52,203 nucleotides of DNA from positions 1-52,203 of the forward strand of contig JAFEEH010000043.1 of the NCBI GenBank assembly GCA_018241185.1, written 5' to 3'. Source of the DNA: Pseudomonadota bacterium. Its GTDB lineage: Bacteria; Pseudomonadota; Gammaproteobacteria; Burkholderiales; Burkholderiaceae_C. Under the pieces are notes generated by a model. The model was given only the letters and a program-made list of their open reading frames with translations. It ran no database searches and had not been told where the DNA came from. Shown one piece after another: positions 20,286-26,477 of the stretch (positions within the stretch are counted from its first letter, which is position 1; each line of letters starts with the position of its first letter). Both the position numbers and the translations under genes were made by a program.

Positions 20286-21233
20286 TCAAGGCACCCACCA
20301 GTGGTGCAGCGCGTGGAAGTACAGCGGCGCCGCGAAGATGACCGAGTCGAGCCGGTCGAGCATGCCGCCGTGGCCCTCGATCATGGTGCCCCAGTCCTTC
20401 ACGCCGCGGTCGCGCTTGATGGCCGACATCACCAGGCCGCCGAAGAAACCCATCACGCAGATCATGAAGGCCATGAGCGCCGCCTGCCAGGGCGTGAAGG
20501 GCGTTGCCCAATAAAGCGCCGCACCCAGCGCCGTGGCGCTGGCGACGCCGCCGACGAGCCCTTCCCACGTCTTGGAGGGCGACAGCTCCGGCGCCACCTT
20601 GCGCTTGCCCAGGAGCTTGCCCCACACGTACTGCAGCACGTCGCTGCCCTGCACCACGATCACCAGGAAGGCGATCAGCAGCAGGTTGCGGCCCTCGAAG
20701 TCCGGAATCCTCAGCGTGAGCAGCGCCGGCACGTGGCTGATGCAGAACACGCACACCATCAGGCCCCACTGCACCTTGGCCGTGCGTTCGAGGAAGCGCT
20801 TGGTATCGCCGCCCACGGCCGAGAGGATCGGCAGGATCAGGAACACCTCGACCGGGATGAAGATCGCGAACATCCCGTACCACTCGATCCACACCAGGAA
20901 GTACTGCACCGGCAGCGCGATGTAGAACGCCGCCGCAATGGCCAGGTGGTCGCCGCGGCGCGTGTAGGAGAGGCTCATGAACTCGCGCAGCGCGTAGAAC
21001 GAGATCAGGTAGAACAGCACGATCACGCCGCCCTTGCCGAGCGCGAAGGCGATGCCGATGACCGCCACCATCACCCACCAGGCGTTCACGCGGGCGTTGA
21101 GGTTGTCGATGACGGCATGCGGCGCGCCGTGCGCCACGCGCCACTTGAGCAGCGCGCCGATGGCCGAGGCGAGGATCAACACGCCGGCCACGCCGCCGAA
21201 GAGCTGCAGCGTGGTCTGGGTCGAGGCGTTCAT
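20286..21233 (-). CDS. CdsA-family phosphatidate cytidylyltransferase (YnbB-like)
   Basis: 315-residue integral membrane enzyme with about eight helices that makes CDP-diacylglycerol from phosphatidate and CTP. The CdsA signature is near the C-terminus: SAIKRDRGVKDWG followed by MIEGHGGMLDRLDS, where Glu replaces the usual Pro before GHGG. Its ATG overlaps the stop of the acyltransferase gene (ATGA) and it is the last gene of a six-gene lipid operon. With the upstream YnbA/C/D-like genes it corresponds to YnbB of E. coli, so it is likely a pathway-dedicated paralogue rather than the housekeeping CdsA. That assignment is inference from context. Confidence 0.88.
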   Translation of the reverse strand: MNASTQTTLQLFGGVAGVLILASAIGALLKWRVAHGAPHAVIDNLNARVNAWWVMVAVIGIAFALGKGGVIVLFYLISFYALREFMSLSYTRRGDHLAIAAAFYIALPVQYFLVWIEWYGMFAIFIPVEVFLILPILSAVGGDTKRFLERTAKVQWGLMVCVFCISHVPALLTLRIPDFEGRNLLLIAFLVIVVQGSDVLQYVWGKLLGKRKVAPELSPSKTWEGLVGGVASATALGAALYWATPFTPWQAALMAFMICVMGFFGGLVMSAIKRDRGVKDWGTMIEGHGGMLDRLDSVIFAAPLYFHALHHWWVP

Positions 21234-21991
21234 GGTGCGCCCTCCGTGCCGGCGGCCGCCTGCACGGCCACGGCCGGCTTCGGTGCCTCCGTGTCGTCCT
21301 CGCGGTCGTACTCGGGCCGCAGGTCGAGCATGGCCTGCCGTGCACGGGCCAGGAAGGCGGCCTTGTCCTCGCCATCGCCCAGCGCCAGCGGCGCCCCGAA
21401 TCGCACCGAGCAGGCCAGCGGCACCGGCACCAGCTGTCCCTTGGGCAGCACGCGCTTGAGGTTCTCGATCCACACCGGCACCAGCCGCACCGCGAGGCCT
21501 TCCTGCTGCAGGTAGCGCGCGATGTGGAACAGCCCGCTCTTGAGCGGCAGCAGGATCTCCTCGCCGGTGTTGCGCGTGCCTTCGGGGAACATGATGAGCG
21601 AGTCGCCCGCCTTGAGCGCGTCGGTCATCTGCTGCACCGGGTTCGTCCCGTCGCTGCCGCCGTCGCGGCGGATCATGAGGGCGTTGAACACGTCCTCGCC
21701 GATGAAGCGGCGCAGCTTCGAGGCCATCCAGTAGTCCTGCCCGGCGACGGGGCGCGTGATCGCGCGCAGGTCGGGCGGCAGCGTGGCCCACAGCAGCACG
21801 AAGTCGCCGTGGCTGGTGTGGTTGGCGAAATAGAGCGTCTGCTCGGCGCGCGGCGTGGTGCCCGACCAGATGGCGCGCACGCCGGTCAGCAGCGCGGCGA
21901 CGCCGATGATGAGCCGGCCGGCGATGAAGGCGAGCACGCGGCGCAGGATCACGCGCGGGGGCGGGGCGTCGGAGTCGAAGGCGTCGGTCAT
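21230..21991 (-). CDS. PlsC-like 1-acyl-sn-glycerol-3-phosphate acyltransferase
   Basis: 253-residue membrane-associated acyltransferase expected to form phosphatidate, the substrate of the CdsA-like enzyme encoded next. An N-terminal hydrophobic helix (VLAFIAGRLIIGVAALLTGV) precedes the catalytic NHTSHGDF (the H-x4-D motif) near residue 57. MIRRDGGSDG and FPEGTRNTGEE follow as the substrate-binding blocks. The C-terminal 30 residues are acidic and Ala/Pro rich. The stop overlaps the CdsA-like start, giving the order phosphatidate synthesis then activation. E. coli ynbABCD lacks such a gene, as far as I recall. Confidence 0.88.
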   Translation of the reverse strand: MTDAFDSDAPPPRVILRRVLAFIAGRLIIGVAALLTGVRAIWSGTTPRAEQTLYFANHTSHGDFVLLWATLPPDLRAITRPVAGQDYWMASKLRRFIGEDVFNALMIRRDGGSDGTNPVQQMTDALKAGDSLIMFPEGTRNTGEEILLPLKSGLFHIARYLQQEGLAVRLVPVWIENLKRVLPKGQLVPVPLACSVRFGAPLALGDGEDKAAFLARARQAMLDLRPEYDREDDTEAPKPAVAVQAAAGTEGAP

Positions 21992-22022
21992 GCAGGGCGT
22001 CCGCGGCGGGGCAGAGGCAAGG

Positions 22023-22457
22023 TCATCGGAGGTCCTCGGTCATCACGGCGAGCAGGAACATGGCGCTCTGGCAGGCGATCACGATCAAATGGCGTTGCAT
22101 CAGCTGGCGCGTGCCGCCGATGCGGTCGGCGAGTGCACGCTCCGACTCGGGTGCGGCGCGCAAGCCCAGTGCGGCGAGCGCGCCGTCGAGCGCGCGCAGG
22201 GACGGCAGGGTGCCCGCAGCGAGCGACTCGAACAGCCGCTGGTCGAAGCGCAGGCGAAAAGCGAAATAGCGCTCCAGCACGCCGAGCACCGCGACTGCGC
22301 CGAAGCCCATGGTGGCCGTCATCGACAGCGCGCGCACCGTGAGCGCGAGCACGGCGGCGGCGATCACGCTGAGCGCAAAGCCCCACCAGCCCGCCAGGTG
22401 CTCGGCGCGCAGCAGCGCGGCCAGGGTCGCGCAGTGTGCGCGTTCGTTGTCGTTCAT
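22023..22457 (-). CDS. small membrane protein of unknown function in the lipid operon
   Basis: 144 residues with two clear N-terminal membrane helices (about 19-60, HLAGWWGFALSVIAAAVLAL and an adjacent segment with MGFGAVAVLGVLERYFAF). A cytoplasmic-looking helical middle follows (LRFDQRLFESLAAGTLPSL), then a C-terminal hydrophobic helix (LIVIACQSAMFLLAVM). Its ATG overlaps the stop of the PAP2-phosphatase gene and the acyltransferase starts 31 bp after it. I recognise no family. Position suggests an accessory subunit or scaffold of the lipid pathway. Confidence 0.82.
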   Translation of the reverse strand: MNDNERAHCATLAALLRAEHLAGWWGFALSVIAAAVLALTVRALSMTATMGFGAVAVLGVLERYFAFRLRFDQRLFESLAAGTLPSLRALDGALAALGLRAAPESERALADRIGGTRQLMQRHLIVIACQSAMFLLAVMTEDLR

Positions 22458-23851
22458 GCGGTGCTCTGCTCCTTCTCGTTCCCGAGGGCAGAGCTTAGTG
22501 CAGCGGCTGGCGCGGTGGCCGGAGAGCCGAGCAGCGCGCGCCAGGCCGGCTTGAGCACGATCTGCGGGCGCGCGCCGCGCACCAGGGCTTCGGCCGTGGC
22601 GGTGTCGGCCGCGCCGCCATGCAGCTGCAGCCAGCCGATCACGGTGGCCGCGCTGCGCGAGAAGCCCAATGCGCAGCAGACCCAGACCGTATCGCGCTCG
22701 CCGCCTGCGCGTCGCTGCGCATCGACCAGCAGCACCGTGCGCTGCAGCTGGGCGGCGCTCGGCACCACCAGGTCGAGCAGGGGCGCACAGCGCGCGCGAC
22801 CCGCTGCGGCGGCCCCGGCCGGCAGTTGCAGCTCCGCGCTCAGGCCGACGAGGCGCGGCCGGCCGGCCGCTTTCCATTCGGCCGTCGACGGCACGCGCCC
22901 CAGGCGCAGGCCGGGCGCGACCTCGACACTCGCTGGCAGGCGTCGCGTCCACAGGCGTGCGTTGATCCATGCGCCGAGTCGATAGGGCGCGAGCAGCCAG
23001 CGCGCGCTCCAGCGCATCCGGCCGTCGCGGCCCATGCCGAAGCCGCGCGCACCGAAGCCGAGGTAGTTGAGCGCGACGATGGTCAGCGCGGCCGCCGGCC
23101 AGGCCAGCCACAGGGCCGCGCCGTGCAGGCTGATCGCCAGTGCCAGGCACAGGCCGGCACCTGCGGCATAGAGGCCGGCGAGCTTCCAGCGCTGCGGGTC
23201 GCGCGCCAGGCGCCAGGCGCGCGGCAGCGCCACCGTTCGCTCCAGCGGCCAGAGCCACACGCACACGAGGCCGAGCAGCGCACCGGTCGGGATGTCGATG
23301 AAGTGGTGCTGGTAGGTGGTGAGCACCGAGCCGCAGATGGCCATCGTCCATGCATGCAGCACCACGCGGCCCCAACGCGGGGTGACGAGGCGCCGGTACC
23401 AGTCCCACAGGATCACCGCCAACGCGATGTGCAGCGACGGCGCCTGGTTGTAGGGCTGGTCGAAGCCGCGCAGCGCGTTGAAGAGGAAGGCCGGCGCGCC
23501 CTCGACCGGCGGCTGGCCGAAGCTGAAATGCAACGGCCACAGCACGAAGCAGCTCACGGCGACGAGCTGTGCCGTGAGCAGGCGCGCCGCATGCCGGTCG
23601 ACGAGGTGCTTCGTGCGCCCGAGAAAGAGCGACAGCGCGTAGAAGGCGTTGATCGACCAGTAGGGAAAGATCGTCCAGGCCCAGAAGGGCATGCCGCGTT
23701 CCCACTCGAACACCACCGAAGGCACCTGCGCCCGCGTGCCGGCCCACCAGTTGGCCAGGCCATAGCTCAGGTAGAAGAGCGGCCCCAGCAGCGCCAGCCA
23801 GGCGGCGGCGCGCTTCCAGGGCGAGGGCCTTCGCGGGTGCGCGGCGCTCAT
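22454..23851 (-). CDS. PAP2-family and dual-specificity phosphatase fusion (YnbD-like)
   Basis: 465 residues. The N-terminal half is a multi-pass PAP2_3-type domain: PSLH at 138-141 and HHFIDIPTG with His183 and Asp186 correspond to the PAP2 catalytic blocks, in the form seen in inositol-phosphoceramide-synthase-like members. After two more helices (about 225-265), the C-terminal domain is a dual-specificity protein phosphatase fold with the CX5R loop CALGFSRS (Cys393 to Arg399). Domain order and length resemble E. coli YnbD (430). Start and stop both overlap neighbours by ATGA. Predicted to dephosphorylate a lipid phosphate made by the CDP-alcohol transferase, but the substrate is unknown. 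Confidence 0.88.
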   Translation of the reverse strand: MSAAHPRRPSPWKRAAAWLALLGPLFYLSYGLANWWAGTRAQVPSVVFEWERGMPFWAWTIFPYWSINAFYALSLFLGRTKHLVDRHAARLLTAQLVAVSCFVLWPLHFSFGQPPVEGAPAFLFNALRGFDQPYNQAPSLHIALAVILWDWYRRLVTPRWGRVVLHAWTMAICGSVLTTYQHHFIDIPTGALLGLVCVWLWPLERTVALPRAWRLARDPQRWKLAGLYAAGAGLCLALAISLHGAALWLAWPAAALTIVALNYLGFGARGFGMGRDGRMRWSARWLLAPYRLGAWINARLWTRRLPASVEVAPGLRLGRVPSTAEWKAAGRPRLVGLSAELQLPAGAAAAGRARCAPLLDLVVPSAAQLQRTVLLVDAQRRAGGERDTVWVCCALGFSRSAATVIGWLQLHGGAADTATAEALVRGARPQIVLKPAWRALLGSPATAPAAALSSALGNEKEQSTA

Positions 23852-25611
23852 CGCTCCACGCGCTGCGCCAGCGAGACCGTGAAGATGCCCCATTCGTCGA
23901 CACGCTGGGCGATCTTGCGGAAACCCGCCTCCTCGACGAGCTGGTCCATCTCGGCCTGCGTGCGACGGCGCATCACCCACGCCTGGCCCTGCCGGTGGCT
24001 GGTCAGCGCGCGCGCGATCATCTCCAGCTGCGGGTGCCAGGGCTGGCCGGTGTAGACCAGCCAGCCGCCGTCTTCCACCGCGTCGCCGACGCCGGCGAGC
24101 GAGCGCCGCACCATCTCGTTCTCGGGGAAGAGTTCGTACAGGCCCGACACCACCGCCAGCGTGGGCCGCGGCGTCACGGTGGCCAGGCTCAGGCGGTCGA
24201 AGGCGTCGGCCTGCACGAACTCGGCGCGGTCCTGCAGCTCGCGCTGGGCGATCAGGGCGCGGCCGTCGCGCACGTTGATGTCGCTGTAGTCGCGCAGCAG
24301 GATCGACTGCGCCTTCACCGGGCTGGCGGCCACCGCGTCGAGCACGTAGCGGCCGTGGCCGGCGGCAATGTCCATCACCCGCACCTCGCGGTGCATGTGG
24401 GCCAGGCGCTCCATCGCGTCGCGAATGAGTTCCTCGACGTGCAGCTTGCGCTGGCGGATGCCGCGCCAGCCGATGGAGTCGAGGTAGGTGCGGTCGATCT
24501 GCCTGCCGATGAGAGGTGCGCCCGCGGCCTCGTTGCGGTACACGTAGTCGAGCGTGCTGCCCGAGTCGAAGCCGGTCGCGTGGCCCAGTGCGATGCCACG
24601 CGACAGCCTGCCGCCCAGCTTCAGGCCGGCGCGCGTCATGGCCCAGTAGGCGCCGCGCGGCGACAGGGGCGAGAGCGGCTCGGCCAGCGCGCGCGACTCG
24701 TCGGCCGTGGCGCCGGACTTGTCGGCCTCGCGCAAATCAACGGGCGCAGGGGGCGCGTCGAACAGGCGCAGGATGAAATCGCGCACCGCCGCCACGGCGG
24801 GGGCGCGGTCCTTCTCGCCCAGCGTGTCGTGGAAGAAGCCCGGGAGCTCGATCTTCTCCTTCACCGCGCTGCCCAGGCGCTCGAAGAACTGGTGCTGGGG
24901 CTTGTGGTGCACCACCCAGTCGGCGCCCGAGATGAGCAGCTGCGTCGGCACGACGATGGCGTTGGCGTCCTGCACCACGCGGTCGGCGGCGTTGTACAGG
25001 TCGAGCAGGATGTTCACGGCGATGGGGCGCGTGATGAGCGGGTCGGCCTCGAAGCTGGCGATGCGCTCGGGGTCGTGCGTGAGGAACTTGGCCTTGACGT
25101 AGCTGTTGACGAAGAACAGGCCGCGCAGCTTGTGCATCAGCGCCAGGCCCGGCCGCGCGAAGGGCACGTAGAGCTTGACCTTGAAGGCCGGCGACGCGAG
25201 CGTGAGGCCGCGCACCCTGGGCGCGTAGTCGTGCGCCCAGGTCGACACCAGCACCGCGCCCACGCTCTGCGCGACGACGTGGATGTCGTGCTCGGCCACG
25301 CCGTGCTGCGTGCCGATGTGCTCGATGAAGGTCTGCACGTCGCGCACCGAGTGGGCGAAGCTGGGGCTGTGGCCCCGCTGGCCCGGCGAGCGGCCGTGGC
25401 CCCGGGCGTCCCAGGCGAAGAAGTCGAAGTCGGGCAGGTCGAGCTCGTCGACCAGGTGCGCCATGCGCGCGCCGTGCTCGTGGCCGCGGTGGAACAGCAC
25501 GATGGCGCCGCGGCGAGTGGCGCCTGTGGCGGGCCAGTGGCGGTAGAACAGCGACTCGCCGTCGTGCGTGTCGAAGTGCAGTTCCTGCGCGGTGCGGGAC
25601 GAGGGGGTCAT
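23848..25611 (-). CDS. alpha/beta hydrolase - SAM methyltransferase fusion (YnbC-like)
   Basis: 587 residues, nearly the same length as E. coli YnbC. Residues 1-285 are a monoacylglycerol-lipase-like alpha/beta hydrolase: FHRGHEHGARM oxyanion region, nucleophile Ser116 in AQSVG, acid Asp231 (ISGADWVVHH) and His261 (GFFHDTLG). Residues about 310-587 are a class I SAM-dependent methyltransferase with motif I VMDIAAGHGRYVLDA at 412-426 and LLRDYSDINV at the acidic loop. No signal peptide or membrane helix. It follows the CDP-alcohol transferase gene after 100 bp that contain repeat copy C. The combination suggests deacylation and methylation of a lipid or its headgroup; this is inference. Confidence 0.9.
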   Translation of the reverse strand: MTPSSRTAQELHFDTHDGESLFYRHWPATGATRRGAIVLFHRGHEHGARMAHLVDELDLPDFDFFAWDARGHGRSPGQRGHSPSFAHSVRDVQTFIEHIGTQHGVAEHDIHVVAQSVGAVLVSTWAHDYAPRVRGLTLASPAFKVKLYVPFARPGLALMHKLRGLFFVNSYVKAKFLTHDPERIASFEADPLITRPIAVNILLDLYNAADRVVQDANAIVVPTQLLISGADWVVHHKPQHQFFERLGSAVKEKIELPGFFHDTLGEKDRAPAVAAVRDFILRLFDAPPAPVDLREADKSGATADESRALAEPLSPLSPRGAYWAMTRAGLKLGGRLSRGIALGHATGFDSGSTLDYVYRNEAAGAPLIGRQIDRTYLDSIGWRGIRQRKLHVEELIRDAMERLAHMHREVRVMDIAAGHGRYVLDAVAASPVKAQSILLRDYSDINVRDGRALIAQRELQDRAEFVQADAFDRLSLATVTPRPTLAVVSGLYELFPENEMVRRSLAGVGDAVEDGGWLVYTGQPWHPQLEMIARALTSHRQGQAWVMRRRTQAEMDQLVEEAGFRKIAQRVDEWGIFTVSLAQRVER

Positions 25612-25639
25612 AAAGCTCCAGAAGACGGGGTCTTATTTT

Positions 25640-25699
25640 GCTATTAAAAAGATAGCTGCTCGCGCCCGATCCACGGGCGTTTCGGGCCTTTTTGGCTTA
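25640..25699 (-). repeat. 60-bp dispersed two-hairpin repeat, copy C
   Basis: Minus orientation, starting 12 nt after the stop of the YnbA-like gene. GC stem CGCCCG/CGGGCG and GCTAT/ATAGC hairpin with a T-rich loop. It separates ynbA-like from ynbC-like within the operon and could modulate expression downstream. Confidence 0.8.
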
Positions 25700-25711
25700 A
25701 AGGGCTGCTGA

Positions 25712-26314
25712 TCAGCCGGTTTCGGCCAGCGTGCGGCGGATGCGGTTGGCGATGGTCCAGGCCACGAGCGCCGCCAGCAGCGGCATGCCCCACGCGGCCC
25801 ATCCGGCCAGTGGCCAGCCCAGCGCCACATACAGCCCCAGCGCCCCGAAGACGAAGGCGCGATCGCTCTTGCCCATCGGGCCGTCGTAACGCCGCGAGGC
25901 ACCCACCGTCGGGCCCAGCGCACCCGCGAATTCCGACAGGCCCGCCAGCACGATCACCGCGCCGACCCAGAAGCCCGAGAAGGGCGCCACCAGCGCAAAG
26001 GGCGCGTACAGCGCCGCGTCGGAGAGCACATCGGTCAGCTCGTTGAGGAAGGCGCCGAGCGTGCTCTTCTGGCCATGCTCGCGCGCCAGCATGCCGTCGA
26101 TGGCGTTGAAGGCCATGCGCAGGAACATCCACAGCGGTACCAGCGCGAAGGCCCAGCGGCCGGGCGCGGCGAAGAAGAGCCAGACGCCGAGCGCTACCGA
26201 CACCGCGCAGGCCGCCACCGTCACTTGGTTGGCGGTCACGCCGGCCCGGGCGAGGCGCCCCACCAGCGGCCGCAGCAGGGCCTGGAGGCGCGGCTTGAGT
26301 TGATAAATAGACAC
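25712..26314 (-). CDS. CDP-alcohol phosphatidyltransferase (YnbA-like)
   Basis: 200 residues from the GTG at 26314 (VSIYQLKPRLQ), chosen because E. coli YnbA, as I recall it, begins in the same way and is 201 residues. An ATG at 26347 would add 11 residues. It is an integral membrane enzyme expected to transfer an alcohol onto a CDP-lipid. The family motif reads DGMLAREHGQ then STLGAFLNELTDVLSD: the residue four after the glycine is Asn, not the canonical Asp, and an extra Asp follows four residues later. FGKSDRAFVFGALGLY-like segment (MGKSDRAFVFGA) further matches YnbA-type proteins. First gene of the lipid operon. Confidence 0.88.
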   Translation of the reverse strand: MSIYQLKPRLQALLRPLVGRLARAGVTANQVTVAACAVSVALGVWLFFAAPGRWAFALVPLWMFLRMAFNAIDGMLAREHGQKSTLGAFLNELTDVLSDAALYAPFALVAPFSGFWVGAVIVLAGLSEFAGALGPTVGASRRYDGPMGKSDRAFVFGALGLYVALGWPLAGWAAWGMPLLAALVAWTIANRIRRTLAETG

Positions 26315-26477
26315 TTGAGAAGAGTTGGACGGTTGACGGCCCTGCATTCTCCGGCCGCCGCTCGTCGGTCTGTGCTCGTCGGCGCGGCGAAGTATCACGT
26401 GTGTCTTCCTTTGGTATCTTCTCCACGTACGTCGGGAGCGCGCCAGTCGTTCCTGCGGCTCTAGGGAGGACGGATTG
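26315..26477. other. divergent intergenic region between ynbA-like and WG-repeat genes
   Basis: About 160 bp that must hold the promoters of the lipid operon and the WG-repeat gene. The plus strand shows a good ribosome binding site GGGAGGA at 26464-26470. I see no convincing paired -10/-35 or operator. Confidence 0.4.

Follow-up and report, generated by a model that had tools for sequence, protein, structure and literature searches.

We describe a set of six genes on the minus strand of a 52,203-nucleotide contig from a Burkholderiales bacterium (GenBank JAFEEH010000043.1, positions 1 to 52,203; hereafter the window), members of a gene kit that in many bacteria probably builds a membrane lipid. 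The set spans positions 20286–26314 and is transcribed in the order A-C-D-S-P-B. Reading frames and Pfam matches bear out the gene identities and coordinates given in a preliminary description of this DNA, with gene D matching below the curated cut-offs. Judging from sequence, we tentatively propose that the set encodes a single pathway for a minor phospholipid, self-contained and in part modular, in which P, B, and A would act in succession, followed by D and C; we regard this as plausible, if somewhat short of probable. The features of the set are as follows.

25712..26314, minus strand: gene A, YnbA-type CDP-alcohol phosphotransferase fold (Pfam, motif, and fold comparison)
25612..25711, minus strand: spacer between A and C holding one copy of a dispersed repeat (repeat search of the same genome)
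23848..25611, minus strand: gene C, YnbC-type fusion of a monoglyceride-lipase-like hydrolase with Methyltransf_20 (Pfam)
22454..23851, minus strand: gene D, YnbD-type PAP2_3-like membrane domain and dual-specificity phosphatase domain (C393, R399)
22023..22457, minus strand: gene S, small membrane protein with two hydrophobic segments (alignment)
21230..21991, minus strand: gene P, PlsC-like acyltransferase with NHx4D and FPEGTR motifs (Pfam and motifs)
20286..21233, minus strand: gene B, CdsA/YnbB-like cytidylyltransferase (Pfam)

The linkage of these genes is beyond chance, because their order recurs across classes and no gene from outside the set is shared past three close genera. We mapped 121 loci with rebuilt profiles, 80 of them being the best of 567 loci confirmed by similarity to gene C of the window; the mapped loci are biased by this choice and are redundant, with three (L018, L028, and L029) coming from identical or near-identical contigs and many belonging to Pseudomonas or Variovorax. 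All six genes are present in 96 of the 121 loci and the order A-C-D-S-P-B is kept in 92, the other 29 being arranged otherwise and some of these ending at contig edges. The methyltransferase half of gene C (PF12147) was found in 17 of 299 genomes drawn evenly from Pseudomonadota, 10 of 100 from the same family, and 12 of 148 from another gammaproteobacterial order. All six genes lie at one place in 13 of the 17 C-bearing genomes of the Pseudomonadota sample. The earlier suggestion of one linked lipid pathway is supported. Among the variants, one genome (G303) has A-C-P-B with D-S approximately 42 kb away, and an acidobacterial metagenome-assembled genome (L086) has all six genes with P-B in front. 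Gene C is also matched by 35 of 72,556 plasmid records, four of which were examined for gene order. P-B is divergent from A-C-D-S on a 19 kb Burkholderia ambifaria plasmid, A-B-P-C is followed by a short piece of D on an E. coli colicin plasmid (L188, 9833–13973), and A is divergent from C-D-S-P-B on a Shinella megaplasmid; the fourth, an IncF plasmid of Citrobacter, is treated with E. coli below. The phage collection gave no match, and a phage origin was rejected on this basis. A survey of reading frames of at least 80 amino acids within 5 kb of the named loci revealed no conserved regulator or seventh gene, that is, no outside gene common to more than three close genera. The same results bear on the possibility that these are unrelated lipid genes that share a locus by accident. 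The occurrence of the P-B pair apart from the set and the varied arrangement of the 29 loci would fit this explanation; however, the order is kept across classes and on both chromosomes and plasmids, gene S is confined to genomes with C (16 of 16), and one reading frame fuses A and C. We reject chance linkage as extremely improbable.

A-P-B, the smallest recurrent unit, forms the core of the set, with C, D, and S as add-ons. In the Pseudomonadota sample, A is found in all 17 genomes with C and in 10 further genomes without it; in these A-only genomes A adjoins both P and B in eight, a partial B in one, and neither in the last. With the C genomes counted in, P and B are at the A locus in 22 of the 27 A genomes. 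P adjoins B in all 30 of the best B loci, and a relative of B is present in 134 of 200 genomes of the family. S occurs in 16 of the 299 genomes, each of them a C genome. The preliminary description had called the pathway complete; because A-P-B recurs without C and D, a modular pathway is the better description and completeness is not borne out.

Gene A matches CDP-OH_P_transf (PF01066) at 1.8e-09 and has the fold and domain of the CDP-alcohol phosphotransferases. The signature of this family comprises eight residues, D1xxD2G1xxAR...G2xxxD3xxxD4 (PMC4634129). Six of the eight are kept in gene A, whose motif is NxxDGxxAR...GxxxNExxD: D1 is replaced by N70 (codon 26105–26107) and D3 by N91 (codon 26042–26044). 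In M. jannaschii phosphatidylserine synthase, D1 and D3 are each reported to touch the two metals, and changing signature aspartates to Ser or Asn lowers or abolishes activity (PMC8633023). Both positions are Asn in 87 of 87 A loci, in which D2 is always kept and D4 is kept in 86 and gapped in one, and the aligned E. coli YnbA has Asn at the same two positions. In the 27 A-bearing genomes, the motifs of which were finally read by eye, Asn is found at D1 in 26 (Ala in G382) and at D3 in all 27. In contrast, Asp is present at D1, D3, and D4 in 33 of 33 other CDP-alcohol phosphotransferases, a control set that leans to well-conserved enzymes and consists of the four others of the same genome and 29 top-scoring PF01066 loci. 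Immediately following D3, the YnbA family has an invariant glutamate (E92) that none of the 33 controls shares. The rest of the site is kept: in 32 aligned A sequences the catalytic base D4, D2, G1, A, and G2 are invariant, R78 is present in 30, the nucleotide-contact residues are retained, and two arginines, R152 and R191, are found in all. These line up in the best HMMER alignment with R155 and R195 of phosphatidylinositol-phosphate (PIP) synthase, the arginine pair that binds the acceptor phosphate. Given that the Asn residues at D1 and D3 and E92 are invariant, the site, as read from these alignments, is under selection in its present form and is not the product of simple decay. With two of eight signature residues changed in all family members examined, one of which differs further, standard CDP-alcohol phosphotransferase activity is not to be assumed for A, and the transferase reaction given in the preliminary description is too strong in this respect. 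A very divergent A-like gene (L260, 6740–8064) has Ala at D1 and Asn at D3, occurs without P or B, and adjoins a gene that we named by eye as nucleotidyltransferase-like.

The closest solved relatives of gene A, and its fold, are those of PIP synthases, which raises the possibility of a phosphatidylinositol pathway with A as PIP synthase and D as PIP phosphatase. Gene A resembles the R. salmoninarum and M. tuberculosis enzymes in fold, catalytic base, acceptor-phosphate arginines, and cytosine contacts, and it has weak NCBIfam matches to archaetidylinositol-phosphate synthase and PIP synthase. However, these matches fall far below the cut-offs (74 of 180 and 52.1 of 170 bits, respectively), and gene A differs from the two enzymes in the Asn residues at D1 and D3, the additional invariant Glu after D3, and the loss of the inositol contacts, the positions equivalent to S132 and K135 of PIP synthase being neither Ser nor Lys. 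In addition, a search of the same genome did not find inositol-1-phosphate synthase (PF01658), a lack that imported inositol would bypass. On the basis of the scores, the PF01658 result, and the lost contacts we disfavor an inositol lipid and consider this pathway very unlikely.

Gene P matches PF01553 (Acyltransferase; 2e-17, 63.7 bits against a cut-off of 23) as expected for PlsC, with the NHx4D and PEGT motifs kept in 80–81 of 81 rows; its score against the TIGR00530 subfamily (43.9 of 102.95 bits) misses the cut-off. Gene B belongs to the CDP-diacylglycerol synthase family (PF01148, CTP_transf_1; 3.5e-69, 234 bits against a cut-off of 24) and shares a conserved KD..GHGG.LDR stretch with YnbB and CdsA. 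It is distinct from the housekeeping CdsA: it scores 90.8 of 385 bits against the equivalog PRK11624, and the genome holds another copy beside rseP/frr-like genes (L026). A third B-type copy is paired with a P paralog beside ruvC (L027, 7780–10874; G000:C28). Gene C matches Hydrolase_4 (9e-69), with monoglyceride lipases nearest to its hydrolase half, and Methyltransf_20 (1.1e-149). Three observations on this gene stand apart: as to a defense system, a reading that we do not adopt, PADLOC gives one weak match of the methyltransferase to mads_2 (0.00021), a lone homolog (L023, 465–2198) has the hydrolase nucleophile motif changed from QSVG to QRAG and is relic-like, and A and C are continuous as one open reading frame in an Acetobacteraceae metagenome-assembled genome (L053, 1350–4397).

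Gene D matches PAP2_3 (0.00026) and DSPc (0.002; 18.4 of 33.5 bits), both under the curated cut-offs. PAP2 phosphatases carry the motifs K-x6-R-P, PSxH, and S-R-x5-H-x3-D. In the PAP2-like part of D, PSLH, H182, and D186 are present in 89 of 89 rows, the first motif is partial, and the third lacks the Arg (V in 86 rows, T in 3). Dual-specificity phosphatases have a C-x5-R loop and a general acid Asp, and C393, R399, and D360 of gene D are present in 86 of the 89 rows, the other three being gapped; the residue before the nucleophilic Cys is Cys, not His, in 77 homologs and His in 3. For gene S, D72, D91, and R112 are invariant in 45 aligned homologs. Searches assigned S to no Pfam or NCBIfam family and returned no PDB match, and 40 members gave no coherent Pfam match.

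From the gene content, order, co-occurrence, folds, and residues observed here we infer a set of reactions, their order, and the kind of acceptor, X. P would acylate lysophosphatidate to phosphatidate, B would convert phosphatidate to CDP-diacylglycerol, and A, as a divergent relative of PIP synthase, would join the phosphatidyl group to X-phosphate, an alcohol or sugar phosphate other than inositol phosphate. Where D is present, its cytosolic dual-specificity domain would strip the head-group phosphate, by analogy with PTPMT1, which removes phosphate from phosphatidylglycerol phosphate, and its PAP2-like domain may transfer a phosphoryl group. Where C is present, it would deacylate or methylate the product, and S may serve in the membrane as a partner protein accompanying C and D. 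The replacement of D1 and D3 by Asn distinguishes the YnbA family among CDP-alcohol phosphotransferases. Should A prove active, nature would have departed here from a signature described as "absolutely conserved", and a new lipid would be implied. A bolder version of the proposal, possible and in our view doubtful, is that YnbA founds a CDP-alcohol-phosphotransferase-like class in which the metal site has been rebuilt (NxxD...NExxD) and which has its own P-B supply of CDP-diacylglycerol, and that it would join the phosphatidyl group to a non-inositol phosphorylated acceptor to give a phospholipid class not yet described, one that E. coli and thousands of other bacteria would be able to make.

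Several observations weigh against the proposed pathway. D was not found anywhere in the 10 A-only genomes in a search at E 1e-5 that recovered the three genomes known to have it (G026 gave just a weak partial PAP2 match), and G391, which carries A and C, lacks D. The product of A does not in every case require a dedicated phosphatase D, and the A-only genomes therefore weaken a strict model in which D must remove phosphate from the ester made by A. P-B is likewise found as a stand-alone pair, and one of the HMMER alignments (u114707) sets R152 a single position out of register with R155. No clear phenotype is reported for E. coli ynbB knockouts (PMC6362211). Finally, the Asn residues at D1 and D3 considered with the M. 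jannaschii mutants suggest that A may lack this reaction (PMC8633023). In that case A could be a CDP-diacylglycerol sensor, a scaffold, or a lipid carrier for P and B, and the operon would remodel or recycle phosphatidate and lysophospholipids. The contrast between the 87 loci and the 33 canonical controls, the retained nucleotide contacts, the presence of P-B at 22 of 27 A loci, and the acyl-handling nature of P and C all speak for such a role. However, invariant D4, D2, G1, A, and G2 and both arginines would be superfluous for a pure scaffold, and the invariant Asn residues and E92 indicate a site under selection; we consider this alternative unlikely.

A further alternative, which we judge improbable, is that the operon makes or supports N-acetylglucosamine (GlcNAc)-PP-diacylglycerol, the precursor of membrane protein integrase (MPIase), with YnbA or YnbB joining CDP-diacylglycerol and GlcNAc-1-phosphate. 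A sugar-1-phosphate is an X-phosphate compatible with the arginine pair; however, A, C, and D are given no part, and many carriers are Burkholderiales or Pseudomonas, in which we know of no description of MPIase. CdsA membranes make GlcNAc-PP-diacylglycerol in a GlcNAc-phosphate-dependent manner and excess YnbB raises MPIase (PMC6362211, PMC10881803), whereas MPIase is unchanged on ynbB deletion (PMC6362211) and ynbB is dispensable for phosphoglyceride-linked enterobacterial common antigen (ECA-PG; PMC8609368). YnbB also makes CDP-diacylglycerol in vitro (PMC7018664), ynbA is activated by BglJ-RcsB (PMC12871917), and EcoCyc has dropped an annotation of YnbA as a cholinephosphotransferase (PMC3781023). 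Searches by name for the ynbABCD operon or its family, made in a library of open-licence papers, returned no paper that assigns a function. The earlier remark that no settled function is known for ynbABCD needs amending for YnbB.

The genes of the window had been described as mostly linked by ATGA overlaps, which is accurate for three of the five junctions (C/D at 23851, D/S at 22457, and P/B at 21233); S and P are separated by 31 nucleotides and A and C by 100. The repeat in the A/C spacer is approximately 64 bp long and occurs at no fewer than 40 places in the genome, the spacer copy included. Homologs favor the GTG at 26314 as the start of gene A, and an in-frame GTG at 26398 is likewise open. 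On one side the operon adjoins ffh and a gene for a Crp-like regulator; the opposite flank has ruvB and a gene with WG repeats. Among the best 80 of the 567 confirmed loci, the nearest named genome is that of Xenophilus (97% for C).

Comparison with E. coli K-12 ynbABCD supports the relation proposed earlier: homologs of four gene types lie at one locus (A 1e-44, B 1e-55, C 1e-227, and D 2e-81 with the window queries), and YnbA has the Asn motif of gene A. The E. coli operon differs from the window in its A-B-C-D order and in the absence of S and P. Of 5426 complete E. coli genomes, 4579 carry it, and in 4242 of these the match spans 80% or more of the query; in strain ET12567 (NZ_CP045457.1, 1780550–1786468) an IS4-like element lies inside the ynb operon. 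The survey divides ynbABCD into testable parts, namely, the A-P-B core, the add-ons C and D-S, and the altered active site. In a midpoint-rooted tree of C (46 of 119 sequences after thinning at 82% identity), the E. coli and E. coli plasmid copies are sisters (Shimodaira–Hasegawa approximate likelihood ratio test support 99) inside a group of 31 rows (support 98). Six-gene forms make up most of this group and also most of the Pseudomonas rows that fall outside it. The simplest reading, and the most likely one from the tree, is that E. coli ynbABCD is a reduced six-gene set that has lost S and P; the root is unfixed, and given the midpoint rooting and two divergent four-type loci with the order B C a d on a long branch (L024 and L025), six-gene ancestry is not proven. 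We therefore set aside "expanded ynbABCD" as the direction of change, six genes being the common form among which E. coli is nested. The IncF plasmid of Citrobacter sp. TSA-1 shares A, B, P, C, and D with the window together with a weak S-like gene (10.5 bits and E 0.012 with the S profile), and differs from it in the order A-B-P-C-D-(S), which links the six-gene set to the order found in E. coli.

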